Shown piece after piece: positions 4,499 to 40,257 of a stretch of DNA of 64,000 nt. The notes beneath the pieces are model-generated. The model was not told where the DNA came from. It saw nothing but the letters and a program-made list of their open reading frames with translations, and searched no databases. Location of the stretch: NCBI RefSeq assembly GCF_002959755.1, contig NZ_PPCW01000004.1, forward strand, positions 496,001 through 560,000, read 5' to 3'. The translations under genes were made by a program, and so were the position numbers. Each line of letters begins with the position of its first letter. The stretch's first letter is position 1. Source of the stretch: Veillonella sp. T11011-6. GTDB taxonomy: Bacteria; Bacillota; Negativicutes; Veillonellales; Veillonellaceae.

Positions 4499-4608
4499 GA
4501 TTTCCTCATTAGGCTATGAGAAAACGGGTGGATATATCTCTAAGGGCGACTTAGGTAACTATGGAGACCGAAGAGATATATCCACCCGTTCATAACTGAA
4601 GAGGAAAT
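4499..4608. repeat. GACT/TGGA hairpin element A
   Basis: A perfect 19-bp stem (4523-4541 with 4572-4590) is flanked by an imperfect outer stem (TTTCCTC...CTATG with CATAACTGAAGAGGAAA). The apical 30 bases contain GACT, a TAG/CTA mini-stem and TGGAG. It lies between two minus-strand genes, with the core motif reading on the plus strand. Member of the family described in the findings. Confidence 0.75.
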
Positions 4609-4974
4609 TTACCAAATCAAGTGATACACGCGATCTAGATTACTTCCGTCTTGTATTTGTACTTTTGTATTTGCCAATGTTTCAGAACCAATCATATAGC
4701 CTTGTGGGTTATATGTAGCAACATCAATGAGCTGTACTGTTTTATCAGCACGGTTGAATGTCATTGTATAAATGGAGTGATCTCCATTTGGATCTACAAT
4801 CTTCAGGCGCAATGTAGCACGAGCATCGTTTTTATCAACAGAGTCATTGTCGATATAGCCAGTACGACCATATTGATCCGTATCAAGAGCATACCAACTT
4901 TCAGCATGAGACACGCCCACACCAGCACTGAATAATAACCCGGCTACCGCTAAACAGGCAAACCATTTTTTCAT
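4609..4974 (-). CDS. Small secreted protein, paralogue 2
   Basis: A 121-residue protein with a Sec signal peptide (MKKWFACLAVAGLLFSAGVGVSHA). The mature part again carries SWYALDTDQYGR, IDNDSVDKND, ATLRLKIVDPNG, a YTMTFNR strand and YNPQGYM, aligning along its length with the proteins at 2801-3175 and 5324-5695. It ends in LIW, as paralogue 1 ends LIWGDK and paralogue 3 ALWGK. There are no Cys in the mature part, so no disulfides. AGGAGAGAATAGTT precedes the ATG. Function unknown; the family pattern and export signal suggest an envelope or surface role. Confidence 0.75.
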   Translation of the reverse strand: MKKWFACLAVAGLLFSAGVGVSHAESWYALDTDQYGRTGYIDNDSVDKNDARATLRLKIVDPNGDHSIYTMTFNRADKTVQLIDVATYNPQGYMIGSETLANTKVQIQDGSNLDRVYHLIW

Positions 4975-5323
4975 AACTATTCTCTCCTGACTATAAAATT
5001 CAAATAACTATGCAATCTGCATACCATAAATTCCCTACGCCTTCATTATAACACCATAATTGCATATTACTAATAAAAACTCTATAAACTGCATAATTAA
5101 TATAAATCTATTAAGGACGATGTGCTGAGTCCTATGGGCTTTGATAATATAACGTATTTGATGACTGATATTCGCCCTGTAAGGTCAACAAAACATAGAA
5201 AGCCCCGAACTGTTCTGAAAACGACTTCGGTCACTATGGAGGCTTTCAGGATAGTTCGGGGCCAAATACGTTCTGAGTATCTAAATAAACAGAGCGAATA
5301 TAAGCTTCTATTAAATTGTTGGA
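4975..5323. other. Intergenic region holding hairpin element B
   Basis: Apart from hairpin element B (listed separately) and AT-rich sequence upstream of paralogue 2 that should contain its promoter, nothing is recognised. No open frame here has a convincing ribosome site. Confidence 0.5.
5151..5272. repeat. GACT/TGGA hairpin element B
   Basis: The inner stem pairs 5202-5220 with 5244-5262 (19 positions, two mismatches). The outer stem pairs AACGTATTTG (5151-5160) with CAAATACGTT (5263-5272). The apical loop contains GACTTCGGTCACTATGGAG. Flanking genes are both on the minus strand; the core reads on the plus strand. Confidence 0.75.
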
Positions 5324-5695
5324 TTATTTACCCCATAGGGCCTTCATAACTTCCGCACCCATGGTATCTTCTTCAATTTTTGTAGGTTTTTGTGCTTCTT
5401 TGCTGGACAATAGTGCTACGCCTGCAGCGCTGTATACTGTTGTATCAAGTTCTGTCCATGTTTTTTCTTTACGGTCAATGCGCACTGTATAGATGTATGT
5501 GAAGCCTTCTACATTGTTAATTTTAACAAGTACTGTAGCCGCATCATCTGTTTTGTATACAGATGCATTATCGATGAACCATGCTGCATCGTCAGCATCA
5601 GCATCGATGTAGTACCAATCAGCAGCACTAGCTTGACCAAAGCCGCCTAAGAATAAAACCCCTGCTGCAAACATAGCAGCTAACCATTTTTTCAT
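5324..5695 (-). CDS. Small secreted protein, paralogue 3
   Basis: A 123-residue protein with a Sec signal peptide (MKKWLAAMFAAGVLFLGG..ASA). It shares with the other two copies the WYYIDAD start, IDNASVYKTDD, AT-LVKI, a YIYTVRI strand and a late Tyr-Ser-Ala-Ala-Gly segment in place of YNPQGY, so it is the most divergent copy. An in-frame ATG at 5743 is rejected because AAGGAG lies just before ATG 5695. It lies 76 bases downstream of gyrA on the same strand and may be transcribed from its own promoter in that gap or by readthrough. Function unknown. Confidence 0.75.
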   Translation of the reverse strand: MKKWLAAMFAAGVLFLGGFGQASAADWYYIDADADDAAWFIDNASVYKTDDAATVLVKINNVEGFTYIYTVRIDRKEKTWTELDTTVYSAAGVALLSSKEAQKPTKIEEDTMGAEVMKALWGK

Positions 5696-5771
5696 ATCTA
5701 AACTCCTTAACGCTAGAGACGACCATCTAAGATGGCCGCCCATAGTTTCTTACATATACTATTAATACAAA

Positions 5772-8243
5772 TTATTCTGCTTCTTCGTCTTCGATTTCAG
5801 CACCTGGAATAACAGCAATACTAGCTACTTTATCACCTTCATCAAGGTTTTGTGTTTTTACACCAGAAATAGCTTTGCCTTTCTTCACAGCAATATCGTT
5901 CATGTTGAAGCGGATGATTTTGCCTTGTTCAGAGATAAGCATAACTTCATCATCGTTATGAACTACTTCTACGGCAACTACGTCACCTGTCTTGTTCGTA
6001 ATCTTGAAGTTCTTAGAACCTTTACCACCGCGTTTTTGCAATGTGTAAGCTTCCGCATCATTGCGTTTACCGAAACCTTCTTCGGAGATTGTAAACACTT
6101 GAGCTTCGCTTTCATCAGCATTAAGAACACCTGCGCCTACAACTACGTCGCCAGTATTAAGTTTAATGCCGCGTACACCGTGAGCCGCACGTTTCATGAG
6201 ACGTACGTCACTTTCACTGAAACGAATAGCGATACCCAATTTAGTACCTAGCAAGATGTCTTGGCTACCATTCGTTACGTTAACGGAAATCAAGTGATCC
6301 CCTTCGTCGAGGTTGATAGCGTTGAGACCAGAACGACGGATGTTGCGATATTCTTCGATAGCTGTACGTTTTACAACGCCGAACTCAGTAACCATGAATA
6401 AGTTTACATCCTCATGGATACGTTCAAGGTCGATCATAGTTGTAACAGATTCGCCTACAGCAAGTGGCAACACGTTAACCATAGCGGTACCGCGAGAATT
6501 ACGGGAACCTGCTTCTGGCACTTCGTATGCTTTCAGGCGGTATGTACGGCCAGTGGACGTGAAGAACAACAATGTATTATGCGTACGAACATGCATAATT
6601 TGCGTTACATAATCGTCTTCCTTCGTCTTCATGCCGATAACGCCAGCGCCACCTTTATGTTGGTTGCGATATACGTTCGCGTTCATCCGTTTGATATAAC
6701 CTTGTTTAGTCAAGGTAATAACCATCTCTTCGTCAGCGATGAGGTCTTCTACATCAAGGTCGGACGTATCGATTGTGATTTCAGAACGACGAGGATCGCC
6801 GTATTTCTTCTTCATATCTTCTAGTTCTTCTTTGATGATTTGACGTTGACGCGCTTCGCTAGCCAAGATAGCTTTCAAATCTTCGATCAATGCCAACAAT
6901 TCCTTGTATTCTTCTTCGATTTTTTCGCGTTCCAAGCCTGTTAAACGGCGTAGACGCATGTCGAGGATGGCTACTGCTTGTTTTTCTGAAAGCCCGAATT
7001 TTTGCATCAATGCGTTACGTGCAATTTCGTCAGTTTGGGAACTGCGGATTGTAGCGATCACTTCATCGATGTGGTCGAGGGCGATCAACAAGCCTTCCAA
7101 GATGTGAGCACGCGCTTCGGCTTTGTTAAGCTCGAATTGTGTACGGCGTACGATAACATCAAGGCGATGATCTAAGTAATAACCCAATACTTCTTTCAAA
7201 TTCAATACGCGAGGATGACCATCTACGAGGGCTAACATAATCACGCCGAAAGATTCTTGAAGTTGAGTGTGTTTATATAATTTGTTAAGTACGATATCTG
7301 GTTGCACATCAGCGCGCAATTCGATAACGATGCGCATACCTTGACGGTCAGATTCGTCGCGAAGTGCTGTGATACCATCAATTACCTTGTCGCGGCTCAA
7401 ATTCGCAATTGTTTCGATAACGCGAGCCTTGTTAACTTGGTATGGGATCTCAGTCACTACGATTTTATGCTTGCCCTTCGCCATTTCTTCAATGGTTGCA
7501 CGAGCGCGCATTTTTACGCTACCACGACCTGTGGAGTACGCTTTTTTAATACCTTCCCGGCCCAAAATGAGCGCCCCTGTCGGGAAGTCTGGACCTTTGA
7601 TTTGTGTCATCAATTCGTCCACAGTTACCTCTGGGTTATCGATGAGCATTGTAAGGCCATTACATACTTCGTTAAGGTTGTGCGGTGGAATATTTGTCGC
7701 CATCCCTACGGCGATACCGCTGGAACCATTGATGAGAAGATTTGGGATCTTCGCTGGCAATACTGTTGGTTCTTGCAAGCTTTCATCATAGTTCGGCATG
7801 AAATCAACAGTTTCCTTGTCGATATCAGCAAGCATTTCTTGCGTAATTTTTGCCATACGTACTTCGGTATAACGCATCGCAGCAGCACTATCGCCATCGA
7901 TGGAGCCAAAGTTACCATGGCCGTCTACCAAGAGGTAGCGCGTATTGAAATCTTGCGCCAAACGTACAGTCGCGTCGTAAACGGAACTATCACCATGTGG
8001 ATGATACTTACCGAGTACGTCACCGACGATACGAGCGGATTTCTTGTACGGTTTATTTGGCGTCATGCCTGTTTCGTGCATCGCGTACAAAATACGACGA
8101 TGAACTGGTTTCAAGCCGTCACGCACATCTGGAAGAGCACGCATTACGATTACGGACATCGCATAATCGATATAAGCGTTCTTCATTTCTTTATCAATCT
8201 GAACGGGATGAATATTCCCGTGGGACCATTGTTGGTCTGCCAC
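5772..8243 (-). CDS. gyrA: DNA gyrase subunit A
   Basis: The breakage-reunion subunit of the enzyme that introduces negative supercoils. It has 823 residues, normal for the family. The active-site Tyr is Y125 in AAMRYTEVR. The quinolone-resistance region reads [10 protein letters not shown], with Ser86 and Asp90 at the positions equal to E. coli 83 and 87, that is, the susceptible residues. The C-terminal beta-pinwheel carries a GyrA box (KRGGKGS), and the tail is acidic (IEDEEAE), as is common in gyrases. gyrB is not adjacent but lies at 46.5 kb on the other side of oriC, unlike Bacillus, where the two are neighbours. Confidence 0.98.
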
Positions 8244-8330
8244 AATCTCACCTCATTTTACTAACACTGATTATAATACATCATAATATTATAGCATTTT
8301 TAAGGGCTAAAGGCTATAAACCCTTTATTA

Positions 8331-9326
8331 TTAACTGTGTTCTTTCACAAATCTATCAAAATCAGAAATTACCTTCTGCTGTGTATTAAATACTTCATAT
8401 TCACTAACAGCTTTCTTCTGTGCTTGTGTCATAGAAATAAGTCCTTTATTTCTTGAGATTTGATACTCATTAAAATCTAAAAACTTATCAACACTTTCAA
8501 TAAAAGCTTTCATAGTAAATGTTTCACGTCGTTCAATAATACGTTCTATATAATCAAAAAATGAGGATATCGTTCGCTCAAGTTGTTCAATTTCTTCAAC
8601 GGATAAATAATTTTTGGCTATAATTACATCTTTTTTATAAATCCGCCCTTCCGGTCCAGATTCCCACGTAGTCAATCCCATATGATCCTTTGTAGCATCT
8701 GCATGACTATGAATGATCTCTGCAGCAGTTTGACCAGTAATAGCATAATGAAACTTATTCCGTATCGTTCCAAAAAATTCTCTAGTAATAGGTGATTGTG
8801 CATCATAATCGATTGCACACGCAGCAAATATATCTGTTACTTGTTGATATATGCGTCGTTCACTAGCGCGAATTGAGCGGACTCTTCGTAGCAATTCTTT
8901 AAAATAATCGTGTCCAAATGAACGTCCATTCTTTAGCATAACATCATCAAGAGCAAAACCTTTGATAATATATTCCCGTAAAACTCCTGTCGCCCAAATT
9001 CGAAATTGAGTTGCCTTTTTGCTATTTACTCGATAACCTACCGCAATGATAGCATCAAGATTATAAAAATTAGTTTGATAAATTTTACCATCTTCAGCAG
9101 TTGTTTCCATTTTGGAAATAACTGCTGATATAACTAGTTCTCCACTTTCAAATATATTCTTCAGATGCTTACTAATAGCAGGTATATTAACATCAAATAG
9201 TTTTGCCATATCTTTTTGTGTCATCCAAAATGTTTCATCTTTGAATAGTACATTCGTGGAAACAGATTCATTCTCTGCTTGATATACAATAACATTTCCT
9301 GTAATCGCATTTTCTAAAGATGTCAT
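8331..9326 (-). CDS. RhuM-family protein
   Basis: A 331-residue protein matching the RhuM (virulence RhuM/cytosolic) family pattern: an N-terminal region with FWMTQKDMAKLFDV and a helix-turn-helix-like ISKHLKNIF, the YNLDAIIAVGYRVNSKKATQFRIWAT core with the VLREYIIKGFALDD segment, then a second half with ERRIYQQVTDIFAACAIDYD and an H-ADA-DHMGLTTW motif. RhuM genes lie on pathogenicity islands and defence-rich regions of many bacteria; the biochemical role is not established. No secretion signal. It lies 87 bases upstream of gyrA, in the same direction but with its own ribosome site. The accessory character suggests acquisition by transfer. Confidence 0.8.
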   Translation of the reverse strand: MTSLENAITGNVIVYQAENESVSTNVLFKDETFWMTQKDMAKLFDVNIPAISKHLKNIFESGELVISAVISKMETTAEDGKIYQTNFYNLDAIIAVGYRVNSKKATQFRIWATGVLREYIIKGFALDDVMLKNGRSFGHDYFKELLRRVRSIRASERRIYQQVTDIFAACAIDYDAQSPITREFFGTIRNKFHYAITGQTAAEIIHSHADATKDHMGLTTWESGPEGRIYKKDVIIAKNYLSVEEIEQLERTISSFFDYIERIIERRETFTMKAFIESVDKFLDFNEYQISRNKGLISMTQAQKKAVSEYEVFNTQQKVISDFDRFVKEHS

Positions 9327-9390
9327 ATAATTCCCCTCTATATTTATATCTCATTTTATTTCATACTTCTAAGCTATTCCTGCTTCTTAT

Positions 9391-10197: not shown

Positions 10198-10216
10198 AGA
10201 TACACCTCTCCCTGAC

Positions 10217-11032: not shown

Positions 11033-11400
11033 ACACAACCACACCTCTCTCCTTTTCCCCATTTGTATCAAGTATTCATATCAAATATGCAGACACAATC
11101 ATTGATAACATCAGCTGATTGTTGATACTCTACTTCACACCCTTTCCCCATCAGGGGCCTCGCCCCATGCGAAAGGAAAAGGGCTTTTGTTGTTAATAGT
11201 TGAAGCAACTAGTTAATAGAAAACATAGGTATGGATGGGACAGACTCACATATAACGTAATAAAAAAGGGCTTCCCTTATTGATGAGCGACTTAGGTCAC
11301 TATGGAGCGAAGAGATAATGGAATCCCTTTTTTAACAATCTAGCATATTTGTATTCGGGCCCCATCCATACTATTTTCGGTTATTCGCCATTAACAACAA
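11033..11400. other. Intergenic region dominated by hairpin element C
   Basis: It contains the probable promoter region of the lipoprotein pair near 11045-11140 and the long nested hairpin at 11226-11374. No gene is seen. Confidence 0.5.
11226..11374. repeat. GACT/TGGA hairpin element C
   Basis: The inner stem pairs 11261-11280 with 11315-11334 (20 positions, two mismatches). The outer stem pairs GTATGGATGGG near 11229 with CCCATCCATAC near 11361. The apex holds GAGC-GACT-TAG-GTCA-CTA-TGGA-GCG, the clearest form of the core. It lies between two minus-strand genes; the core reads on the plus strand. Confidence 0.8.
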
Positions 11401-12561
11401 TCACTTAACTAGCGCATCCAATTTATTCATTCGATAGTTCTCTATTACATCCATGAACGCTTTGTTATGAATAGGATTTTCCGTCATCCCAAATAGGTGA
11501 CTGTTACAGTCGCAGTCAGAGGATCCAAATTTAGGCACGTCCCATTCGGCAATGCCACGGACCGCATCAGCGAGAGCGCATTCCGCATCATCCCAGCTAG
11601 TTCGAATCGGCAGGCCTGCAATCATTTCGCAGTGACCGCGGAAATAGTCTAGATGCCAGTGCATTTTCTTCCGTTTTCGCTTGTGGCGCTCAATGCGTTT
11701 CGTTAAGTTCGCCTTCGCAGAGCCTACGTACATATAGTAACCCGCCTTGAAATGCATCATCCCTTTAGAGCCGATTTCAAGGTCAAGATCATGGCCGAGG
11801 TGCATGACCATCACGTACACGCCGCTATCGTGAGCCTCTGTGTCGAGGATGCTACTTGGATAGGAACATTCATGGGTTACAGTAGGCATGGTGAAAGTCT
11901 CATCCCACGCCACAGCAACGGCTTTCCAATCTAAAGAAGGGGCTATCTCTTTAAAGGTTTTAGCAAATTCCAAATCTGTATGGTAGTCTGGCAAGAACCA
12001 CTGCGCTTGGTCCCATTGTACGAGGAATAAGACACCTGTATGGTAACCTTCGTTTTGCAATTCTTTCAAATGTAATAAATGTTTACGGCCTCGCTCTGTT
12101 ATGGCATCAGGGAACATGGCGCCTGTCTTGGAAAATAGCGTACAAGACTTGACCTCTAGCAAGAACTCGTCGCCCTTATCATTGGTGAGGAGCAAGTCAA
12201 AGCGTGATGATGTACCGTGTAGTTTAACTGTATACTCTCGTCTTACAACGCGCCATTCCTCCCAACCAGGGATTAATTTATTTTCGATCAAATGCTGCGC
12301 TACATCGTTACTATAGTTCGTATCGAGCATAATCACGACACCATCGCGCTCGATGCCCACTACGCGGTACTTTGTCTTTGCATCAGGCTTATCGTGAGGC
12401 ACAATGTACATCGTTACACCGGTGAATAAGAGCTCCCACATGCGCCCAGGATTTGGCAAATGAGCGAGTACGCTTTCACCATTTAAATCTAAAGTCACCA
12501 CAAAACGGTTCGGGCGACCAGTATATGTTGCTTTCAAAATTGTATCGTAAAGGACCTTCAT
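11401..12561 (-). CDS. sfsA: SfsA-family nuclease fused to a DUF123 (GIY-YIG-like) domain
   Basis: 386 residues in two domains. Residues 1 to about 225 match SfsA (sugar fermentation stimulation protein), including LPNPGRMWELL, the RFDLLL strand and the nuclease-like FLLEVKSCTL (E-x-K) with FPDAITERGRKHL. SfsA has an OB-like N-terminus and a PD-(D/E)XK fold. Residues from about 245 match DUF123: GVYVMVMHLG, YYMYVGSAK with a basic RIERHKRKRKKMHWHLDY segment, ECALAD and FGSSDCDCNSHLF. DUF123 proteins are relatives of GIY-YIG nucleases. Usually these are separate proteins; here they form one frame without a visible break. The fusion suggests a nucleic-acid role rather than sugar metabolism. Confidence 0.85.
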   Translation of the reverse strand: MKVLYDTILKATYTGRPNRFVVTLDLNGESVLAHLPNPGRMWELLFTGVTMYIVPHDKPDAKTKYRVVGIERDGVVIMLDTNYSNDVAQHLIENKLIPGWEEWRVVRREYTVKLHGTSSRFDLLLTNDKGDEFLLEVKSCTLFSKTGAMFPDAITERGRKHLLHLKELQNEGYHTGVLFLVQWDQAQWFLPDYHTDLEFAKTFKEIAPSLDWKAVAVAWDETFTMPTVTHECSYPSSILDTEAHDSGVYVMVMHLGHDLDLEIGSKGMMHFKAGYYMYVGSAKANLTKRIERHKRKRKKMHWHLDYFRGHCEMIAGLPIRTSWDDAECALADAVRGIAEWDVPKFGSSDCDCNSHLFGMTENPIHNKAFMDVIENYRMNKLDALVK

Positions 12562-12736
12562 TGTATCTCCTATATCAGTAATATTCTATATGTCTATTAT
12601 ACGCTATTTTGTTACAGGATAAGAATCCTATACATCGTACTATGAAAGTCCTTACGTTAATGGGAACCTCTAACAAGTGCTATAAGCCCTTAAAAACTTA
12701 CCAAAAGAGGCATTTAAAAACTTATCAAAATATGGC

Positions 12737-13600: not shown

Positions 13601-13617
13601 ACTACTTGCACTCCTAA

Positions 13618-13914: not shown

Positions 13915-13977
13915 TATGTCACCGACTCTCTCAAATCATAGTGAATGGTTAATACAATATAAATGGCCATTTATAAT

Positions 13978-15334: not shown

Positions 15335-15335
15335 T

Positions 15336-23691: not shown

Positions 23692-24621
23692 TTATACTCT
23701 AAATTCTACAGTTTCAGTATCATCTGTATGGTCTTGACCATCCATATAAGCAATGAGTCGTTCTAGTTCTGCTTCAGAGGAGAAGGCAATTTCTATCTTA
23801 CCTTGTACCTTTTTACCAGCGCGGAACTTAATATTTACAGGGGATCCTAAGCTTAGTTTTAAACGATCCATAAGTGCTCGTACTTCTGCTGTACTTTGTG
23901 GTTTAGCAGTCTTTGCCTTTGGTGTTTTATTTTGCATAGACTTCACAAGAGCCTCTGCTTGACGGGCACTTAATTCGCCCTCTTTAATGCGTTCAGCAGC
24001 TTCAATTTGTTGTGCTGCACTACGCAACGCCAATAACGGGCGTGCTTGACCTACCGTTAAGTCACCTTCGATAAGGTCTTTTTGGACAGAATCACATAAT
24101 TTCAACAAACGAACCATGTTTGCAATATAAGAACGACTGCGACCTAAACGAGCAGAAATCATTTCTTGTGTTTGTTTGTAAGTATCCATTAAACCTTGGT
24201 ATGCCAAAGCTTCTTCAATTGGATCTAAGCCTTCACGTTGTAAATTTTCAACGAGGGCTACCTCTGTCATTTCTTCTGTATTATATTTCTTTACAACAAC
24301 TGGTACTGTCTCTAGACCTGCAATAATAGCGGCACGGTAACGACGTTCACCAGCTACAATTTGGTATTTATTCTTTTGTTTACGTACTACAATTGGTTGG
24401 AAAATACCAAGATTTTTAATAGACTCAGCTAATGTGGCTAAACTATCTTCATCAAAGCTTTTACGAGGTTGATCTACATTTGGAACTAATTCGGAAATTG
24501 GTAATTCGTGAATTTCCTTTTCAGGTAACACAGACTCTACAGTGTCCACCTTCATTAAATTTCCAAGGCCCTTCCCCAAGCCAGATGATTTACTTTTCTT
24601 ACTTTTAACTTCTCTAGGCAT
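23692..24621 (-). CDS. parB: Chromosome partitioning protein ParB
   Basis: 309 residues. It binds parS, spreads on DNA as a CTP-dependent clamp and loads SMC. After a basic tail (KSKKSKSSGLGKGLGNLM) come the CTP-binding ParB/Srx motifs (QPRKSFDEDSLATLAESI, GIFQPIVVRK, VAGERRYRAA), where GERRYRA is the hallmark. The helix-turn-helix follows (TQEMISARLGRSRSYIANMVRLLKL), then a Lys-rich linker and the dimerisation domain ending ETVEFRV. Five parS-like sites lie within 4 kb. parA starts 917 bases upstream of the parB start, with a 146-base gap between the genes, so parB may have its own promoter. Confidence 0.96.
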   Translation of the reverse strand: MPREVKSKKSKSSGLGKGLGNLMKVDTVESVLPEKEIHELPISELVPNVDQPRKSFDEDSLATLAESIKNLGIFQPIVVRKQKNKYQIVAGERRYRAAIIAGLETVPVVVKKYNTEEMTEVALVENLQREGLDPIEEALAYQGLMDTYKQTQEMISARLGRSRSYIANMVRLLKLCDSVQKDLIEGDLTVGQARPLLALRSAAQQIEAAERIKEGELSARQAEALVKSMQNKTPKAKTAKPQSTAEVRALMDRLKLSLGSPVNIKFRAGKKVQGKIEIAFSSEAELERLIAYMDGQDHTDDTETVEFRV

Positions 24622-24767
24622 AACTAACCTCTCTCACCTTACATATAGTGGCTATATCAATCTATAACACTCAATTATTTAATAGCCAATGCATTAATTC
24701 TACTAATCTCATACATTTGTTTAACTAAACACTTAGCCATTTAGCTCTTTCAGCTATATATAACCAT

Positions 24768-25538
24768 TTATTTAGCTTTTGATGCTTTGATTACTTCTTT
24801 AGCTAATTTAGTATATACGTCAGCACCCTTAGATTTTGGATCATATACGATAATTGGTTCACCATAACTTGGAGCTTCGCTAAGACGTACATTACGAGGA
24901 ATAATAGTCTTATATACTTTATTGCCAAAGAATTTTTTCACTTCATCAGCAACCTGAATAGATAAATTTGTACGACCATCAAACATAGTTAACAAGACAC
25001 CTTCAATTTCAAGTTCTTTATTAGATGTTTGTTGCACAATAGTTATGGTTTTTACAAGTTGACTAACCCCTTCTAATGCGTAGAATTCACTTTGAATTGG
25101 AATTAATACACTATCTGCTGCTGTGAAAGCATTTAATGTTAGTAAACCAAGGGATGGCGGACAATCAATGATAATAAAGTCGTACTCATCGCGTACCGGT
25201 GCTAATGCTTTTTTCAACATTGTTTCACGTGAAATAACGGAAACAAGTTCTACTTCAGCACCAGCCAATTGAATCGTTGCAGGCGCTACAAATAGCTTTT
25301 TAAGCATTGTAGGCTGAACAATATCAGCAATAGGTTCACCATCGATTAGAACATCATGTACACAGAGTTCTAAATCATCTTTTTCAATGCCTAAACCAGA
25401 ACTAGCATTACCTTGTGGATCTAAATCAACAAGCAATACTTTCTTACCAGCATCAGCCAAACAAGCGCTCAAATTCACGGATGTTGTTGTTTTACCAACA
25501 CCGCCTTTTTGATTAGTAATAGCTATAACTTTGCCCAC
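24768..25538 (-). CDS. parA: Chromosome partitioning ATPase ParA (Soj)
   Basis: 256 residues. A deviant Walker A motif KGGVGKTTT (residues 11-19) with the signature Lys, Walker A' ([14 protein letters not shown]) and Walker B ([13 protein letters not shown]) identify a ParA/Soj ATPase that moves ParB-parS complexes and tunes DnaA. It is the short chromosomal type without an N-terminal helix-turn-helix. GAGGTGAATTAA precedes a GTG start. A 15/16 match to parS (25221-25236) lies within the coding sequence. The preceding 0.9 kb to the next gene is non-coding and holds further parS sites. Confidence 0.96.
25221..25236. promoter_or_regulatory. parS-like site inside parA
   Basis: TGTTTCACGTGAAATA matches the parS consensus TGTTNCACGTGAAACA at all but one position. 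Confidence 0.7.
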
Positions 25539-25749
25539 TTAATTCACCTCACATGTTCGTTCAAAATATTTCTTTTTAATTATAACATAAAACAACGATA
25601 ATTACGGTAATTACAAATCAAATTCCAGAAAAATATCTATAATTTCATCTATCATACACATTATTTCAAAAATTATATAGTTTATATCAGCAAATATATA
25701 GACCCAATGTGCTATATTTCCTTTAAATTATATAATTATATACCTTGAT

Positions 25750-25765
25750 TGTTTCACGTGAAACA
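25750..25765. promoter_or_regulatory. parS site
   Basis: TGTTTCACGTGAAACA is a perfect match to the ParB-binding consensus, flanked by matching T/A bases that extend the dyad. Confidence 0.92.
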
Positions 25766-25806
25766 ATTTACTTTTAATTTTTCAAAATATATTTGAGTAA
25801 AAACTT

Positions 25807-25840
25807 ATCTATAAATGTTTCACGTGAAACATTTATAGAT
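25807..25840. promoter_or_regulatory. parS site within a 34-bp perfect palindrome
   Basis: The 16-bp parS core (25816-25831) is extended on both sides by ATCTATAAA and its complement, giving perfect dyad symmetry over 34 bases, far longer than ParB needs. Confidence 0.92.
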
Positions 25841-26101
25841 AATCAAAATTTTATAGTTACTCAAAACGTAAATTTATAGTTGTTCAATACATATTTTTAA
25901 CATAAATTTTTTATAGTAAAAAAAACAGAGTTGGTATATAAATATATACCAACTTATAATTTTTACACATATTTTTTCACACAGTTTTATTTTGAAATAA
26001 CTAAGCTAAAAAAATTACAACCCAACTAATCTAAAATATATAACTAACCTAAAAATTCAATCCGCTAATTGAAATAGTTAAGCTAATAAAAATAATTCAA
26101 T

Positions 26102-26117
26102 TGTTTCACGTGAAACA
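26102..26117. promoter_or_regulatory. parS site
   Basis: TGTTTCACGTGAAACA, inside a 22-bp palindrome (26099-26120). Confidence 0.92.
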
Positions 26118-26151
26118 ATTAGAAATAAAACAGTAAGATCATGAAGCAAAT

Positions 26152-29813: not shown

Positions 29814-29838
29814 ATATGTATAGATCAAGAGGTACATG

Positions 29839-30696
29839 ATGACATTAAGAGAGAAACATCAACAAGGGAAATTCACCATCACCGTTGAATTAGACCCACC
29901 AAAGAGTAGTTCTGCTCAAAAAGTATTTGACCAAGCAGCACGTTTAAAAGGTAAGGTAGATGCTATTAACATCGCTGACAGCCCTATGTCCAAAATGCGT
30001 ATGAGCCCAATTTCCTTGTCTTATTTGTTACAACACAATAAAGATATCGAAACTATCTTCCACCTTACATGCCGCGATCGTAATATCATCGGCTTACAAT
30101 CCGAATTACTTGGCGCTGCAGCACTTGGCGTAAATAATATCTTAACCCTTACTGGTGACAAACCAGATAATGGGGACCATCCATTTGCACAATCCGTATT
30201 TGAAGTAGACTGCATGGGCTTACTTAACATCGCTAAAACTTTGAATTCTGGCAAAGACTTGGCAGGTAATGACTTAGACGAGCCTACAAACTTCTACATC
30301 GGTGCTACTGGTAACCCTGGTGCGCCAGATTTAGAAATTGAACGTCAAAAATTGGCTGCTAAAATTAAAAATGGTGCGCATTTCGTACAAACACAACCAA
30401 TTTACGATTTAGAACAAGCAAAACGCTACATCGATAAAATGTCTGAGTTCGATGTGCCTATTATGCTCGGTTTAATTCCACTTAAAAGCTTCAAAATGGC
30501 CACATATCTACACGAAAAAGTGCCTGGGATCAACCTTACACAAGAAATCCTAGACCGCGTAGAAAAGGGCGGTAAAGAAGCGGGTACAGAAATCGCTATC
30601 GAAACATTGGAACAAATCAAAAAAATCGCTGCAGGCGTACATATTATGCCTTTAAACGATATCGATACAACATTACATATCATTGATCACGTATAA
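29839..30696 (+). CDS. metF: Methylenetetrahydrofolate reductase
   Basis: About 285 residues of the MTHFR FAD-barrel family. It reduces 5,10-methylene-THF to 5-methyl-THF, the substrate of MetH. Visible blocks are FTITVELDPPKSS (catalytic Glu region), AINIADSPMSKMRMSPI, HLTCRDRN, the LTGDKPDNGDH FAD segment, ATGNPGAPDLEIERQKLAAKIKNGAHFVQTQPIYD and GLIPLKS. The length is typical of bacterial MetF with no regulatory domain. AAGAGG suits ATG 29839 better than the immediately preceding ATG 29836. It is 125 bases from metH; the intervening inverted word pair may modulate readthrough. Confidence 0.93.
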   Translation: MTLREKHQQGKFTITVELDPPKSSSAQKVFDQAARLKGKVDAINIADSPMSKMRMSPISLSYLLQHNKDIETIFHLTCRDRNIIGLQSELLGAAALGVNNILTLTGDKPDNGDHPFAQSVFEVDCMGLLNIAKTLNSGKDLAGNDLDEPTNFYIGATGNPGAPDLEIERQKLAAKIKNGAHFVQTQPIYDLEQAKRYIDKMSEFDVPIMLGLIPLKSFKMATYLHEKVPGINLTQEILDRVEKGGKEAGTEIAIETLEQIKKIAAGVHIMPLNDIDTTLHIIDHV

Positions 30697-30717
30697 GTCA
30701 TTGTGAGATTATCATAG

Positions 30718-30773
30718 AACACCCTTCCCATGGACTCCATAGTAATCCTAAGTCGTCCTTAGGGAAAGGTGTT
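30718..30773. repeat. GACT/TGGA hairpin element D
   Basis: AACACCCTTCCC (30718-30729) pairs with GGGAAAGGTGTT (30762-30773). On the minus strand the apex reads GGAC-GACT-TAG-GATTA-CTA-TGGA-GTCC, so the helix next to the internal loop is a perfect 4-bp GGAC/GTCC. It lies between the convergent metF and rsmG genes and may also act as the metF terminator. Confidence 0.75.
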
Positions 30774-30804
30774 TATTTTATTTAATAAGCCTAGAGAAAA
30801 AGAA

Positions 30805-30835: not shown

Positions 30836-30844
30836 ATTCATACA

Positions 30845-32399: not shown

Positions 32400-32403
32400 C
32401 TAA

Positions 32404-32437
32404 AAAAGCTAGTTAATCACAAGATTAACTAGCTTTT
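32404..32437 (+). terminator. Terminator of the short ORF
   Basis: AAAAGCTAGTTAATC pairs with GATTAACTAGCTTTT around a 4-base loop; T5 ends the right arm. It could also serve the minus strand. Confidence 0.85.
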
Positions 32438-32487
32438 TGTATGTAATTAATAAAAAAGTAGATTTATTTTATTATACTTTTACCTTA

Positions 32488-32961: not shown

Positions 32962-33011
32962 AAAATTTTTCTCCTCTTCAAACTATATTTGTATTTTTAC
33001 ATTATTAAAAA

Positions 33012-34883: not shown

Positions 34884-34933
34884 ATCAATTGAATTCCTTA
34901 TATTTGTTACTTATCTTATTGTGAAAGTTTTCT

Positions 34934-34968
34934 CAGAGCACAGTTCCTCACTGTGACTTTTCTTTGGG
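34934..34968 (-). repeat. Dispersed 35-base repeat, copy 1
   Basis: On the minus strand this reads CCCAAAGAAAAGT followed by CACAGTGAGGAACTGTGCTCTG; a second copy with three or four changes is at 43731-43764. The centre forms the small hairpin ACAGT-gagga-ACTGT. It fills the gap between mnmE and mnmG. Confidence 0.65.
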
Positions 34969-36354
34969 TTATTTACCAAGGCAGAAACGGCTAAATAGTT
35001 CGTCGATCATGGATTCACGGATGGTATCACCCGTGATGTCGCCTAGTAGTTCCCAGGCGCTGCGCAGGTCGGTTGCTACAAAGTCTACTGGCATGCCCAT
35101 GTCGATGGAGGAGAGGGCTTGTTCGACTTGAGCCTTCGCTTGTTCCATGAGGCTGATGTGGCGCACGTTACTGATCATAGCGCTGTTATCTTGTTTTACG
35201 CGACCGCCGTAGACGAGTTCTTGCACCCATTTAGAGAGAACTGCAGAGCCTTCGCCTTCTTTAGCACTGATGCGCTCGATAGCCGTAAAGGTTCCGTGTT
35301 CTTTAATATTTTCGTCTGTAACGACTTGTGCCATATCGGACTTATTAAGGAGTACGATGGTGTTCAAACCGCTCACAGAGGTCAAAATTTCGATTTCTTC
35401 AGGGGTTAATGGAGTAGACCCATCGATAACGCAGAGCACGATGTCTGCTTTGTTGATATAATCGCGAGCACGTTCAACGCCAAGGGCTTCTACCGTGTCT
35501 TGTGTGTCACGGATACCTGCTGTATCGATGAGGCGCAAGGAAATGCCTTCAACGGTCATATATTCTTCAATACTATCCCGTGTCGTACCAGGAATATCTG
35601 TTACGATAGCGCGATTTTCACGCAAGAGAGCGTTCATCAAGCTCGATTTACCTGCATTTGGACGGCCTACGATAACCGTTGTAATACCGTCCCGAATGAG
35701 GCGGCCTGTATTCGCTGTGGATAAGAGATCATCCATAGCTTTCAAAATAGGCTGCAATTGATCACGAACCTCTTGGCTCGTTACGTCCTCAATATCCTCT
35801 TCAGGATAGTCGATGGTTACCTCTAAATGGGCAATCATAGCGATGAGCTGTTCACGCACATCTTTCACAAAGGACGAAACGGTCCCATCTAGCTGAGATA
35901 CAGCGAGAGAGAGGGAGTCCTCCGTTTTTGCTTCAATAATATCAATGATCGCCTCTGCTTGAGTAAGGTCGATGCGTCCGTTCATAAAGGCGCGCTTCGT
36001 AAATTCGCCGGCCTCAGCCATGCGCACATCGTGGTTTACGAGCAATTTCAGAATTTGTCGAACCGGCACAATACCGCCGTGACACTGAATTTCCACTACA
36101 TCCTCTGCCGTGTAGGAATGAGGGCCTTTCATTAATAATACAAGAACCTCGTCAATGGTCTTGTTCGTTGCGGGATCCACAATGGTCCCATATTGTATCG
36201 TTCTATTTTGGCGGTCCATCAAAGGAACAGTGCCAGCGCTCTTGAACAGGCTATTTACAATAGGAAAACTATCCTTGCCGCTGACCCGAATAATACCAAC
36301 CCCGCCGATACCGGGCGGCGTCGCAATGGCCGCTATTGTATCATCTATATACAT
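34969..36354 (-). CDS. mnmE: tRNA modification GTPase MnmE
   Basis: 461 residues. Partner of MnmG in U34 modification. The N-terminal folate-binding domain (DTIAAIATPPGIGGVGIIRVSG, HSYTAEDVVEIQCHGG, AEAGEFTKRAFMNGRIDLTQAEAI) is followed by the inserted G domain: GRPNAGKSSLMNALL, IPGTTRDSIEE, DTAGIRDTQD and NKSD. The C-terminal end is the obligatory FCLGK, whose Cys is required for activity. Upstream it is separated from jag by a hairpin with the GTGAAAG word at both ends, so the two genes may be separate transcripts. Confidence 0.97.
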   Translation of the reverse strand: MYIDDTIAAIATPPGIGGVGIIRVSGKDSFPIVNSLFKSAGTVPLMDRQNRTIQYGTIVDPATNKTIDEVLVLLMKGPHSYTAEDVVEIQCHGGIVPVRQILKLLVNHDVRMAEAGEFTKRAFMNGRIDLTQAEAIIDIIEAKTEDSLSLAVSQLDGTVSSFVKDVREQLIAMIAHLEVTIDYPEEDIEDVTSQEVRDQLQPILKAMDDLLSTANTGRLIRDGITTVIVGRPNAGKSSLMNALLRENRAIVTDIPGTTRDSIEEYMTVEGISLRLIDTAGIRDTQDTVEALGVERARDYINKADIVLCVIDGSTPLTPEEIEILTSVSGLNTIVLLNKSDMAQVVTDENIKEHGTFTAIERISAKEGEGSAVLSKWVQELVYGGRVKQDNSAMISNVRHISLMEQAKAQVEQALSSIDMGMPVDFVATDLRSAWELLGDITGDTIRESMIDELFSRFCLGK

Positions 36355-36409
36355 ACATATCTCCGTATTTCGATTATCTAATATTTGATTTTGTATATGT
36401 TCTTCGCCT

Positions 36410-36467
36410 GTGAAAGTTAAACTAAACTAATCTTTGCATGCGAAGATTAACTTAGGTTAGCTTTCAC
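36410..36467. repeat. Hairpin ending in inverted GTGAAAG words
   Basis: Bases 36410-36435 pair imperfectly with 36442-36467 around GCATGC, with GTGAAAG and CTTTCAC at the outer ends. It lies between jag and mnmE, where a terminator might be expected, but no T run follows. Confidence 0.65.
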
Positions 36468-36543
36468 CATAACCTAAAGAATAAAGAGGACAGCCCTCAA
36501 GCAACCGATAATCTCAGTTACTTGAAAGCTGCACCACTATATT

Positions 36544-37341
36544 TTATTTTTTGTACGTAATCACAACGTGACGGAACGGTTCGTCCCCTTCACTGTTAGT
36601 AACAACGTTTTTATCGCCTTGAAGGGCAGTGTGAATGATTTTACGTTCAAAAGCATTCATTGGTTCTAAAGAAACCTTTTGACGGTTGCGTTTCACCTTA
36701 GAAGCCAAGCGTTTCGCGAGATTTACCAATGTTTCTTCTCGGCGAGAACGATAGTTTTCCACATCTACAACGATATGGCAGTGGCCAGATACATCCTTGT
36801 GAGCCACGAGATTAGTTAAGTATTGAATAGCATCCAATGTTTGACCATGTTTGCCAATCAAAATACCCAAATCTTCGCCGTGTACTTGGAATGTAATCTT
36901 ATCTTTGGTCATCATTTTTTCGATAACCACAGTGAGGCCCATTTGAGTAAACATATCATCGAGGAATTGTTTACCTTTTTCAGCGATTTCTTGTTGATCT
37001 TCTTTTGAAAGTTCCTTTTTAGAAGGTTTTTCTACAACATCACCTTCAGTAGAATCAACTAATGTGTCTTCTACTTCTGTTTCAGTTGTTGCCACCGGTT
37101 CGGAAGCAACAGCTACAGATTGTTCTTCTACATGAGCTACTTCTTCTTGAGTAGCAGTTTTAGCTACAGATGTGAAGAATAAGCGAACAACTGCTGGTTT
37201 ACGACCAATGCCCAAGAAGCCATTAGAAGGTTGTTCCAAGACTTTAGTTTCTACCAATTCTTGGCCTTCTGCAGCCAATTGAGCTACGCCTTTGGCAATG
37301 GCATCTTCAATGGTTTTAGCAGATACATCGATAAATTCCAT
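36544..37341 (-). CDS. jag: Jag/KhpB RNA-binding protein
   Basis: 265 residues. Jag N domain (MEFIDVSAKTIEDAIAKGVAQL, SNGFLGIGRKPAVVRLFF), an acidic Val/Thr/Glu-rich linker (about 65-115), a KH domain with the GxxG loop GKHG in ILIGKHGQTLDAIQYLTNLV, and an R3H domain (RRRETLVNLAKRLA ... NAFERKIIHTAL). In Gram-positives KhpB binds RNA with KhpA and affects cell elongation and division. The yidC stop lies 9 bases upstream of its start, and TAGGAGGC precedes the ATG, so it is the last gene of the rpmH-rnpA-yidD-yidC-jag unit. Confidence 0.95.
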   Translation of the reverse strand: MEFIDVSAKTIEDAIAKGVAQLAAEGQELVETKVLEQPSNGFLGIGRKPAVVRLFFTSVAKTATQEEVAHVEEQSVAVASEPVATTETEVEDTLVDSTEGDVVEKPSKKELSKEDQQEIAEKGKQFLDDMFTQMGLTVVIEKMMTKDKITFQVHGEDLGILIGKHGQTLDAIQYLTNLVAHKDVSGHCHIVVDVENYRSRREETLVNLAKRLASKVKRNRQKVSLEPMNAFERKIIHTALQGDKNVVTNSEGDEPFRHVVITYKK

Positions 37342-37350
37342 AATTGCCTC

Positions 37351-38016
37351 CTACTTAGCGTTCAAATTTTTGTAAATGAAGTGCTGTTGAATCAATTGGA
37401 ATACGTTAGATACTACCCAGTAGATAACGAGACCAGATGGGAAGCTCAAAGAGATGTAACCAATGAATAAAGGCATAAAGATTGTCATAATCTTTTGTTG
37501 TTGTGCAGCTGCACCAGTTGCACCATTGCTAGTTTGACGAGACATAACCCATGTGGATAATGCACTCAAAACTGGCAAGATGTACATTGGATCTGGTTCG
37601 CCAAGGCTAGGCAACCACAAGAATTGTACAAAGTTTGGATCGTAAGGGTAGTCTTTCAACGCCCAGTAAATTGCGATCAAGAATGGCATTTGCACCAATA
37701 GAGGCAAACAACCAGCCAATGGATTAACGCCCATTTCTTTGTACAATGCACCCATTTCCGCTTGAAGTTTTGCAGGATCGTTTTTGTATTTATCTTGCAA
37801 TTGTTTCATGCGAGGCTGCAATTCTTGCATAGCCTTCATGGATTTAATTTGCTTAACAGTAAGTGGTGCCAAAATCGCTTTAATGAAGATTGTTAAAAGG
37901 ATAATAGCCACACCGTAGCTTGGATAACCTACCATTTGAGTCAATTGGAACGCGTACGTTACCAATGTGCTCATCAAGTCAACGATAGGTTGGAAAATAC
38001 CACTTAAAAAGTCCAT
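37351..38016 (-). CDS. yidC: Membrane protein insertase YidC
   Basis: 221 residues, the short Gram-positive-like Oxa1/YidC form lacking the large periplasmic P1 domain of Gram-negative YidC, and here also lacking a lipobox. Five membrane segments are visible, starting with MVGYPSYGVAIILLTIFIKAIL. The hydrophilic-groove Arg is absent from its usual context: the segment LTIFIKAILAPLTVKQIKSM has Lys where many YidC proteins have Arg. The C1 hairpin KAMQELQPRMKQLQDKYKNDPAKLQAEMGALYKEMGVNP is clear, and the end SGLVIYWVVSNVFQLIQQHFI is canonical. It inserts membrane proteins with or without SecYEG. Confidence 0.95.
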   Translation of the reverse strand: MDFLSGIFQPIVDLMSTLVTYAFQLTQMVGYPSYGVAIILLTIFIKAILAPLTVKQIKSMKAMQELQPRMKQLQDKYKNDPAKLQAEMGALYKEMGVNPLAGCLPLLVQMPFLIAIYWALKDYPYDPNFVQFLWLPSLGEPDPMYILPVLSALSTWVMSRQTSNGATGAAAQQQKIMTIFMPLFIGYISLSFPSGLVIYWVVSNVFQLIQQHFIYKNLNAK

Positions 38017-38138
38017 TGTTTCTCCTTTTTCTTACAGTCCGAAACCGTCCTTTGCGCATCTATATATCGTTATGGTATGGTCTAAATTTCATCCATACAG
38101 ATGCTCAGGTATTTCCAAAACTGTGCTAGATAGTTTTT

Positions 38139-38155
38139 GTGAAAGTTACTTTCAC
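38139..38155. repeat. Inverted pair of GTGAAAG words
   Basis: GTGAAAG-TTA-CTTTCAC: two words 3 bases apart in inverted orientation, in the gap between yidD and yidC. Confidence 0.7.
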
Positions 38156-38184
38156 AGAACGCATCCAGCCTAAGCCCAAATAGG

Positions 38185-38406
38185 TTAGGGAACTGGATCG
38201 TAGCCACCCTTGTGGAAAGGATGGCAGCGAAGAATGCGTTTTAAACCCATCCAGCTACCTTTCAAAGGACCATATTTTTCGATGGCCTGCAGAGTATATG
38301 TGGAACATGTCGGATAATAACGGCAACATCCAGGTTTTAAGGGAGATATGGCAAGCTGATAGAACCTAATTAAAAGTCGTAAAAGCGCGGTTATACAGCG
38401 TTTCAT
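38185..38406 (-). CDS. yidD: Membrane protein insertion efficiency factor YidD
   Basis: 73 residues: [64 protein letters not shown]. This is the complete YidD signature, with the three conserved Cys (CCRYYPTC), the amphipathic N-terminal helix and the terminal GGYDPVP. It sits between rnpA and yidC as in most bacteria and assists YidC-dependent insertion. GGAGGTTTCC lies before ATG 38406; the longer reading from 38424 starts ahead of this ribosome site. Confidence 0.96.
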
Positions 38407-38456
38407 GGAAACCTCCATATACACAAAAAAGGACCAAAGCCTTCTAACTTGTGGTC

Positions 38457-38816
38457 CTATTTATCATTTTGTATCAACAATTTGCTTTTTCGCAAGAGAT
38501 ACAAAATTTCCTTTTCCGCTTTTTCGTAGGTAGCGTTTTTCAGAGGGCCACGTCCAACAATTACGATATGATACCCTTCGCGTATGGAATGTTGATTGAG
38601 GCGATATACCTCTTTCATAAGGCGTCTAGCTCGGTTGCGCTCTACAGCACAACCAACCTTTTTGCCGGTTACAAAACCAATGCGCGTAGATTGCTTCGCC
38701 ACGGGCATACGATACAGTACACACATACGGCCTACTTCGTATTTACCGTGCTTATACACAAGGCGATATTCATTATTGTGCGTCAGTCGTCTTGCTTTAT
38801 CGAGGCAATAATCCAT
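38457..38816 (-). CDS. rnpA: Ribonuclease P protein component
   Basis: About 119 residues. Protein subunit that helps the RNase P RNA cleave tRNA 5' leaders. The family features are [20 protein letters not shown], the basic RNR box in [18 protein letters not shown], and [22 protein letters not shown]. The ribosome site AAGGA is 8 bases from ATG 38816 and only 2 from ATG 38822, so the shorter form is preferred. It lies between rpmH and yidD, in the same direction. Confidence 0.95.
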
Positions 38817-38895
38817 ATGCATTGTCCTTAAGTCCTAAGAATAGAAAAACTTGGCAGCAGCGCCAAGTTTTTTCTCCTGCCTAACAGCTATTATA

Positions 38896-39030
38896 TTATG
38901 CAGATAAGCGTTTTCTGCCTTTTGCACGTCTTCTTTTTAAAACGAGACGGCCACCGATAGTTTTCATGCGTTCACGGAAACCATGGGTACGTTTTCTCCA
39001 AAGAGTATTTGGTTGGTAAGTACGTTTCAT
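38896..39030 (-). CDS. rpmH: 50S ribosomal protein L34
   Basis: 44 residues with the full L34 signature: [18 protein letters not shown], then [20 protein letters not shown] and an ending LSA. GAGGAGGTGTTTTACTA precedes the ATG. It is the first gene of the leftward conserved cluster; its promoter is at 39086-39114 and is close to consensus, as expected for a highly expressed ribosomal gene next to the origin. The RNase P protein gene follows after about 80 bases. Confidence 0.97.
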
Positions 39031-39085
39031 TAGTAAAACACCTCCTCGTCATTTTGTATTGTTTTACTTATACCATAACAGGGTA

Positions 39086-39114
39086 ATTATAGAGTTAAAA
39101 CGTAAATTTGTCAA
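39086..39114 (-). promoter_or_regulatory. Consensus sigma-70 promoter of rpmH
   Basis: On the minus strand TTGACA (39114-39109) and TATAAT (39091-39086) are both perfect and separated by 17 bases. Transcription would start near 39079, 48 bases before the rpmH ATG. Confidence 0.9.
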
Positions 39115-39127
39115 TCATTTAGGGCTA

Positions 39128-39358
39128 TTCTGAAAGACTTTTATGTAGATTTTACTTAAATCCGATAGAACTTAAAACTGATACTACTTTTATAGGGGGA
39201 GGAATAGATGTGGTTTTCTCCCTCCATACTCATCGTAAGTCGGTCAAAAATCCACATCTATTCCTGCTCCTAACATACTCTAATGACTACTATAACACCT
39301 ACCACCAGTATAAAAAGTAGTATCAGTTTTTATGGCAAATCTAAAAGTCTTTCAAAAT
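39128..39358. repeat. GACT/TGGA hairpin element E
   Basis: Three nested stems: outer CTGAAAGACTTTT with AAAAGTCTTTCA, middle AAAACTGATACTACTTTT with its near complement ending at 39330, inner GGAATAGATGTGG with CCACATCTATTCC. On the minus strand the apex (39222-39245) reads GACC-GACT-TAC-GATGA-GTA-TGGA-GGG. Confidence 0.75.
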
Positions 39359-39433
39359 ACGGATCTAAGATATAACAAATCTTCCCTTTCAACCTCTTGA
39401 GGGAAAAAGGGAAAATTAATGTTACGTTTCCAA
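39196..39433. repeat. Direct repeat left of oriC, copy 1
   Basis: This stretch recurs 440 bases away (39636-39873) with scattered substitutions and one or two small length changes. Each copy carries the right part of one hairpin element and the start of a second. Confidence 0.8.
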
Positions 39434-39557
39434 AAGAGAGCTCCTTCATCGCTCCATACTAACCGTAAAGTCGCTCAAAAGGACCCTATATTCCCTCCCT
39501 AAGACAACCCTAATCTATCCTTACACACCACTACACGATGTAAACGTAACATCAATT
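39410..39557. repeat. GACT/TGGA hairpin element F
   Basis: The outer stem ATTAATGTTACGTTT pairs with AAACGTAACATCAAT (39542-39557). The apex near 39452-39475 on the minus strand reads GAGC-GACTT-TAC-GGTTA-GTA-TGGA-GCG. Intermediate stems are decayed. Confidence 0.6.
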
Positions 39558-39635
39558 ATTCAGCAACACAAGAACTCACATTCTAATCTTTTATATTTTG
39601 GCGAATTTACCTTTTGATCTCTAGTTGGAAGAGGA

Positions 39636-39873
39636 GGGGAGGAATAGATGTGGTTTTCTCCCTCCATACGACACGTAAGTCGGTCAAAAATCCACATCTA
39701 TTCCTGCTCCTAACACGCTCTAATGACTACTATAACACCTACCACCAGTATAGAAAGTAGTATCAGTTTTTATAGCAAATCTAAAAGTCTTTCAGAATAC
39801 GGATCTAAGATATAACAAATCTTACCTTTTAACCTTTTGAGGGGAAAGGGAAAATTGATGTTACATTTCCAAA
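39636..39873. repeat. Direct repeat left of oriC, copy 2, with elements G and H
   Basis: Second copy of 39196-39433. Element G keeps the inner stem GGAATAGATGTGG/CCACATCTATTCC; its apex on the minus strand reads GACC-GACT-TACG-TGT-CGTA-TGGA-GGG. Element H begins at its right end and continues to about 39930 with a decayed core. Confidence 0.75.
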
Positions 39874-39950
39874 CAACTAAGTCTTCTTCATCACTCCATA
39901 CGACACGTTTCGGTCAAAGATCCACATCCACACCTAACACTCCCTCTTAG

Positions 39951-40257
39951 AAAAATCACTAGTTTGTTATTTTTATCTATCATTTAGTTTTGATTATCTG
40001 AAGGTTGATGTTGTTATGTTCATCAATTACTTTTTCGTCTATGTATATTGTAATCATAAAAATTATCTTATAGGAGGAGCGGACTGAAAACTACTTTTTG
40101 AGTGACTTACGCGTCGTATGGAGCGATAAAAGTAGTTTTCAGTCCTCCCCCAAAAGTAATTGATGAACAAAAGATGAGATAATTACTGAGTTATTAACAT
40201 TTCTCCTTCAGATAATCAAAAGTTATCCACAGAATAAATGACAAACTAGTGATTTTT
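39951..40257. repeat. GACT/TGGA hairpin element I, a 307-base nested inverted repeat
   Basis: Four successive stems: 39951-39967 with 40241-40257, 39992-40004 with 40205-40217, 40018-40034 with 40152-40168, and 40082-40098 with 40128-40144, each perfect or nearly so over 13-17 bp. The apex (40099-40127) reads GAGT-GACT-TACG-CGT-CGTA-TGGA-GCG on the plus strand. A perfect DnaA box (40223-40231) lies between its outermost right arms. Confidence 0.85.

Follow-up and report, generated by a model that had tools for sequence, protein, structure and literature searches.

Multi-copy hairpins of bacterial chromosomes normally share the sequence of their stems. The ERIC or IRU elements of the enterobacteria, which measure approximately 127 bp, are of this kind, their copies having a stem sequence in common. 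REPINs and REP doublets occur in many copies as extragenic inverted repeats, for which hairpin formation in single-stranded DNA or mRNA is predicted, and REPs themselves are over-represented short words (PMC3116915). The Correia repeat enclosed elements, also termed NEMIS, are small, multi-copy elements with inverted repeats and a conserved core that can affect neighbouring genes (PMC2649163).

Veillonella chromosomes carry several to approximately 20 long hairpins each, in which the layout, the ends and usually the tip are constant, whereas the stems vary by site and are nonetheless near-perfectly paired. This arrangement separates what is recognised from what merely pairs. With ERIC elements the family shares its approximate length, an imperfectly palindromic form, an intergenic location and a multi-copy character, but the site-specific stems set it apart from ERIC as described. 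The elements resemble REPINs as multi-copy extragenic inverted repeats, and differ from them in that the palindrome sequence is not common to the copies, which share instead their ends, layout, internal loops and usually their tip; a tie to Y1 transposases is likewise absent, none having been found in the element-bearing genome G008. Like Correia elements they are small and built on inverted repeats, although their helices vary between sites. Terminal inverted repeats are present as in MITEs, whereas the direct target duplication that flanks MITEs is absent. The likeness to intrinsic terminators lies in a stem that follows a stop codon, with an A-run before it and a T-run after it in approximately half of the site groups; a loop of approximately 31-38 nt with its own sub-fold, outer helices that reach past the U-run, and copies beside dnaA without any U-run distinguish the family from them. 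The initial annotation recognised no named RNA or REP class in these hairpins, and this stands: Rfam gave nothing at or above its gathering threshold across the window, and at 11100-11500 the sole match with E <=1 was RT-17 (18.2 bits against a threshold of 40.4), outside the core. Among the matches listed from the open-licence PMC literature, no description of the family was found.

Hairpins of the dnaA region

The window, that is, the whole stretch of 64,000 nucleotides analysed from Veillonella sp. T11011-6, covers the replication-origin region, with dnaA followed by dnaN, rnpA at 38457-38822, and ParB-like and ParA-like genes at 23692-25538. Beside the latter two, at 25748-26128, lie several GTTTCACGTGAAAC palindromes, which we take to be a parS-like motif. 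Eight intergenic hairpins had been reported by the initial annotation; all are present, each centred on a tip of the GACT...TGGA form, and are given here with their neighbouring features.

4436-4486, plus strand: half copy, consisting of the left arm and part of the tip, beside the intact copy at 4520-4593
4520-4593, plus strand: inner hairpin, tip 4548-4565, 3' of a 121-aa gene at 4609-4974 (minus strand)
5196-5268, plus strand: inner hairpin, tip 5223-5240, mini-stem with a C.T; arms apparently extend into the 3' end of the gene at 5324-5743 (minus strand)
11236-11364, plus strand: full-form (type A) core TGGGAC...GGGCCCCA, tip 11289-11306, inverted flanks to approximately 11224-11376
11401-12561, minus strand: SfsA-DUF123 gene (by Pfam), with the core at 11236-11364 directly 3' of it
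30708-30782, minus strand: inner hairpin, tip 30736-30754, 3' of the MTHFR gene at 29836-30696 (plus strand)
39196-39269, minus strand: dnaA-side hairpin 1, tip 39223-39241
39431-39500, minus strand: dnaA-side hairpin 2, tip 39453-39472, one arm partly lost
39636-39709, minus strand: dnaA-side hairpin 3, tip 39663-39681, nearly a repeat of hairpin 1 but with another tip loop
40076-40150, plus strand: dnaA-side hairpin 4, tip 40104-40122, innermost of nested arms
39951-40257, no strand assigned: nested inverted repeats around hairpin 4, with arms 39951-39972/40236-40257, 39971-40004/40205-40238 and 40014-40034/40152-40172
40536-42113, plus strand: dnaA (NCBIfam TIGR00362, E 1.3e-131)

The only full copy in the window, at 11224-11376, matches the full-form covariance model R2 with 134.5 bits (E 1.5e-32), the alignment from which R2 was built (A3) having included this copy; the other seven hairpins match R2 partly or weakly. 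The strict pattern GACTTA-N(3-10)-TATGGA has eight matches in the window against 0.09 expected (100 shuffles). Six of these matches coincide with hairpin tips; the other two (1467 and 1887, minus strand) fall inside an ORF, with no hairpin centred there. The tips at 5223 and 39453 were found only with a looser pattern. The stems, which had been called unrelated, do differ by site, with the exception of the nearly identical pair at 39196-39269 and 39636-39709.

The half copy at 4436-4486 resembles, by eye, the intact copy of genome G005 at the same site. The stretches that bear hairpins 1 and 3 (39128-39358 and 39636-39800) are similar to one another and carry different tip loops, and near these hairpins, at approximately 39840-39945, there is apparently another decayed copy.

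Architecture, covariation and strand asymmetry

Across the family, the core measures approximately 128 nt end to end, with arms of mostly 53 nt before the tip and 57-58 nt after it, as observed in 38 distinct cores and in 43 when more loci were used without a flank cut. Arm lengths among the 43 are 53/58 (19 cores), 53/57 (17), 52/58 (4), and 53/59, 51/57 and 52/57 (one each), in searches that bounded core length and tip position; wider bounds add eight cores of other lengths, seven of which are without flank pairing. The core is delimited by the terminal inverted repeats ATGGGAC and GGGCCCCAT, which leave one A.C mismatch, and columns 12-16 are paired in 21 or 22 of 22 aligned rows, the rows having been preselected by these ends. 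Ends of the GGGCCCCAT type and their partners were listed across 800 kb of genome G009 and across the window. The 8-12 nt that adjoin the core on its outside make up an inverted repeat particular to each site, with at least five of 12 flank pairs formed in 42 of the 43 cores. Arm lengths of up to approximately 300 nt and more proved to be an artefact of lax gap penalties; mismatched-partner nulls score 27 on average and up to 70, and only the inner arms and the core were therefore used.

The letters of both the inner stem and the outer flanking helix vary by site while their pairing is almost perfect, implying either that a fold is under selection or that the arms are actively corrected. In 22 aligned full elements with a structure of 44 pairs, 87.1% of 960 cells are paired, compared to 66.0% upon shuffling, and the covariation score is 0.524 against 0.141 for shuffled alignments (0 of 500 reaching 0.524) and at most 0.132 for slid versions, with rows that were hand-picked and include some orthologues, a structure drawn from the same sequences, and relatedness that can itself surpass both kinds of control. 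In this alignment, broadly speaking, the paired columns are variable, and the ends and most of the tip are invariant. Within the outer flank, columns 6-12 hold Watson-Crick pairs in 151 of 154 cells and G.T in none, the rows being preselected for at least five of 12 flank pairs.

The usual tip is CGAC...GGAG, i.e., C-GA-C-Y...Y-G-GA-G on one strand, and its loop takes the forms TAG/CTA, TAG/CTT, TACG/CGTA or TGC/GAA, or is long and GC-rich or branched (V. atypica and others); the loop form can differ between species at one site despite the same stem. Covariation of the mini-stem, as originally proposed, is upheld in part. In 26 family members one of its pairs is G-C in 16 and C-G in 10, but column pair 35-43 is unpaired in three, and complementarity is not strict, given TCG/CTA at 5223 and TGC...GAA, with G.A, at the dnaA-side tips of four other genomes. 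The covariation claimed for the pairs outside the internal loop is in line with the counts, the second pair outside the tip being G-C in 11, C-G in seven and unpaired in six of the 26.

An invariant tip is ruled out. R2 matched 27 places across 21 further stretches; GAC...GGA is kept at 15 (a count that includes L174 and, read on its other strand, L283, both assigned by eye) and altered at 10 (e.g., GATT...CTGA and GCCT...TTGA), the remaining two being tipless fragments. Most of the other loci were fetched via the tip itself, such that its conservation there is partly a product of how they were chosen; thus, the ends and the layout are better-tested constants than the tip.

The tandem G-A pairs that GACT opposite TGGA would allow have gained support. 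Mismatches beside the tip (positions 1-7) are G.A in 112 cases and C.T in 12 on the GACT..TGGA strand, as counted over 66 distinct, non-independent flanks. At the top of the stem, columns 57-58 hold 13 T.G and no A.C, and for 80 of 91 inner hairpins the plus-strand RNA has the more stable fold. These asymmetries make the strand reading GACT..TGGA the likelier one to be folded.

Distribution, placement and descent

A covariance-model search revealed further copies well beyond the window, as R2 finds matches in 13 of 14 Veillonella genomes, with a maximum of 21 per genome, a number reached in V. parvula SKV38. Across the order (61 genomes), the 17 matched genomes comprise the 13 of Veillonella and four of two sister genera, the latter matched weakly, and there was no match in the other 10 genera searched. 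Model R1, which describes the tip and inner stem and was built from 26 sequences, matches 13 of the 14 Veillonella genomes at E <=0.1 and, at E <=0.01, 12 of 300 genomes of the class, representing two of 97 genera. Carriers include V. rogosae, V. infantium, V. denticariosi, V. atypica and V. parvula SKV38. A further search gave 17 stretches, seven from Veillonella or Veillonellaceae and 10 from distant taxa, which are probably chance matches.

Placement relative to genes is strongly biased. Of 104 rows (genes of at least 90 aa; orthologues included), 59 have a gene within 150 nt on the 3' side of the element. In 56 of these the element runs antisense to that gene, which places it just behind the gene; sense placement occurs in three, and to this minority the earlier statement that both orientations occur is confined. 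The other 45 rows have no gene within 150 nt on that side. Neighbouring genes, as identified by Pfam, encode SfsA-DUF123, a Prismane-family protein, ArsC-like, EtfA, MTHFR, carbonic anhydrase, CstA, AcrB and DnaB. Exceptions to this placement include the rpmH-dnaA intergenic cluster (rpmH being recognised by eye only), a copy located approximately 213 nt ahead of a bioD-like gene and, behind cstA, a second copy. The MTHFR gene is directed toward oriC and its element nonetheless follows it; thus, orientation there tracks transcription and not replication.

Copies are concentrated toward the origin. In five complete genomes, 56 of 61 clusters, counted by hand among the matches listed, fall in the half nearer dnaA (11/11, 12/14, 13/14, 7/8 and 13/14), with sites shared by descent and the genomes accordingly not independent. 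Samples of 400 kb from G009 contain, with R1 at E <=0.01, 10 places near the origin and one near the terminus, while long hairpins of all kinds, the family included, number 49 and 26. A terminus half devoid of copies is refuted by those at G012:905685, G008:1299370, G008:1155324 and G009:461083; the bias is real but not absolute.

A second multi-hairpin cluster lies between a carbonic anhydrase gene and a bioD-like gene (G008:312995-313721, G006:C3, G009, G011:C15 and G012), and its copies face both ways, like those next to dnaA.

Orthologous sites often have exactly the same stem in different species, whereas at paralogous sites the stems differ. Where left arms are at least 60% alike, 60 distinct changes affect both arms (34 without a possible G-U step) and 33 a single arm; where they are 80% alike, the counts are 16 (11 of transition type) and 23. 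Judging from these sequence comparisons, close relatives look like products of ordinary compensation and distant versions like those of whole replacement. Adjoining copies also seem to recombine, as L115:2290-2363 and L089:2291-2364 have the appearance of joined arms of two neighbours. The orthologous series offer a natural data set on whether selection or template switching maintains the stems.

Putative termination and recognition, and alternative explanations

Terminator activity is taken here, on sequence grounds, as a common though not universal role. An A-run of at least four at the stem base, equivalent to a U-run in the mRNA of the gene lying behind, is found in at least one member of 14 of 29 site groups. 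The other 15 groups are without a run of four A, the dnaA-side groups among them, and termination is therefore ruled out as the function that all share. Of the 21 rows that bear an element at four sites, 14 have the element as the top-ranking terminator-like hairpin after the gene. Where the element is absent, an ordinary terminator occupies its place at cstA in 11 of 12 rows, at dnaB in four of seven, at MTHFR in one of seven and at SfsA in none of six, in a scan that took one best match per row and required runs of four T (dnaB row L249, a false positive of the pattern, being counted as element-lacking); their presence is thus site-dependent. The outer helix pairs across the U-run, involving a part that would be missing from an efficiently terminated transcript, and the dnaA-side copies lie elsewhere than at the 3' ends of genes. 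The contention that these hairpins are not ordinary terminators is correct by half: the run in 14 groups and the rows in which the element is the top-ranking hairpin speak against it, and the dnaA-side groups, which lack a run, agree with it.

We tentatively favour, with confidence somewhat short of even, an old, vertically inherited, multi-copy structured element that often acts as a bidirectional terminator and whose G.A-rich tip may bind a candidate factor. The copies would be non-coding and inherited mostly at fixed sites. In approximately half of the site groups, the inner stem and U-run would form a (bidirectional) intrinsic terminator of the preceding operon. The purine-rich tip would fold on the operon-antisense strand and serve there as a recognition module for a host factor. 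Stem letters would drift because only pairing matters there, with selection keeping the arms matched, possibly with help from template switching and from swaps of entire inner parts. It counts against this explanation that the G.A-rich strand is not the mRNA of the upstream gene, and the altered tip at 10 of 27 full-model places lowers confidence in it further.

Best placed among the alternatives, though unlikely in itself, is non-autonomous mobile DNA of the MITE or REPIN type, in which the single-stranded hairpin is or was a transposase substrate, with the ends and tip as recognition sites. A discrete core with conserved ends, 9-21 full-model matches in nine of 14 genomes (some representing both strands of one place) and presence/absence differences at orthologous sites are consistent with mobility. 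So too are the dnaB site, where one inner part is common to six species and V. rogosae, with almost identical flanks, has a different one, and an internally deleted remnant without stem and tip after cstA in G005. The flanks, however, are inverted, and direct flank repeats of at least 5 nt occur at none of 38 cores, those of 4 nt at four. Stems that differ among paralogues and are often conserved among orthologues are unlike those of fresh copies; no clean empty site was seen at the four sites examined, and one full element had no plasmid or phage match. Matches to PF01797 (Y1, IS200/IS605-type, with IS200-type and RAYT pooled) number 1-14, fragments included, in each of 12 of the 14 genomes, but among the matches listed none was found in G001 or in G008, which carries 14 element clusters, and a transposase of this type was rejected as a necessary partner on the strength of G008.

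A structured RNA, be it a 3'-UTR or an antisense RNA, with a tip that binds protein or RNA and with selection on RNA folding alone, is also doubtful, and somewhat more so. Covarying helices with conserved unpaired positions, an orientation tied to transcription even at the MTHFR site, and the strand asymmetry beside the tip, including the T.G at the stem top, all speak for it. Against it, G-U pairs occupy 0 of 154 cells in flank columns 6-12 and five of 70 in the acceptor stems of ten tRNAs from the same loci, G.T is elsewhere in the stems about as rare as A.C (13 and 10 in 1340 inner-stem positions), and no known RNA family in Rfam matches. The scarcity of G-U leans against RNA folding as the sole constraint, with a weak terminator control and T.G present at the stem top. 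One-strand RNA selection expressed through wobble asymmetry was rejected, as 88 hairpins gave 37 G.T and 43 A.C, a count affected, by rough estimate, by chance registers, and inner stems alone gave 13 and 10, in a low-powered test for which control terminator-like hairpins gave only 31 and 20. Of the initial proposal of selection for a specific folded RNA or single-stranded DNA, the fold itself is supported by copies in 13 of 14 genomes, by covariation above controls (with structures from the same sequences) and by conserved ends and internal loops, whereas the equal rarity of G.T and A.C in the inner stems leaves folding at the RNA level unproven.

It is improbable, if conceivable, that the purine-rich tip, in its fold on the operon-antisense strand, is the ligand of a candidate Veillonella factor that recognises the dnaA-rpmH region and the ends of operons near the origin. 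Such a factor would see the tip, the end loops and the arm length while each copy keeps its own stem, and the family would constitute a spatial marking system and not a set of terminators or transposons. The dnaA-side cluster raises a direct question regarding origin or dnaA regulation. Some Veillonella strains are naturally competent, and deletion and tip-swap tests should thus be feasible.

A functionless by-product of mutation, in which template switching at replication forks produces long palindromes and maintains their perfection, is very improbable. Template switching can create and repair such stems, by a published mechanism (PMC8794818). The near-perfect Watson-Crick arms of changing sequence, the excess of both-arm over single changes (60 to 33) with 34 of the 60 unreachable via a G-U step, and arms that apparently run into a gene end are compatible with it, but it does not predict conserved ends, internal loops or near-fixed arm lengths, and closely similar arms show 16 both-arm and 23 single changes, as ordinary compensation would. 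Ordinary intrinsic terminators with a loop shared by chance would explain the position behind genes and the U-runs of approximately half of the groups, but are regarded as refuted by the conserved core; its conserved ends and arm lengths, the eightfold occurrence of a tip expected 0.09 times and the dnaA-side groups without a run also speak against them.

Variant tips were noted at several loci. At L150, L151, L273 and L275 (V. atypica G002, and G013), the tip is larger than usual owing to an insert, GGCCCTG...CCCGGCCGG, that is rich in GC and apparently structured. L279 and L280 (G009:1276500-1277700 and G012:1853900-1855500) form a subgroup with the tip GATTTTACG...CGTACTGAG, in which neighbouring copies are oppositely oriented. 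In genome G181, of another Veillonellaceae genus, loci L122, L123 and L125 contain adjoining related hairpins with similar stems and tips such as GACTTACGAAGTATGGA.
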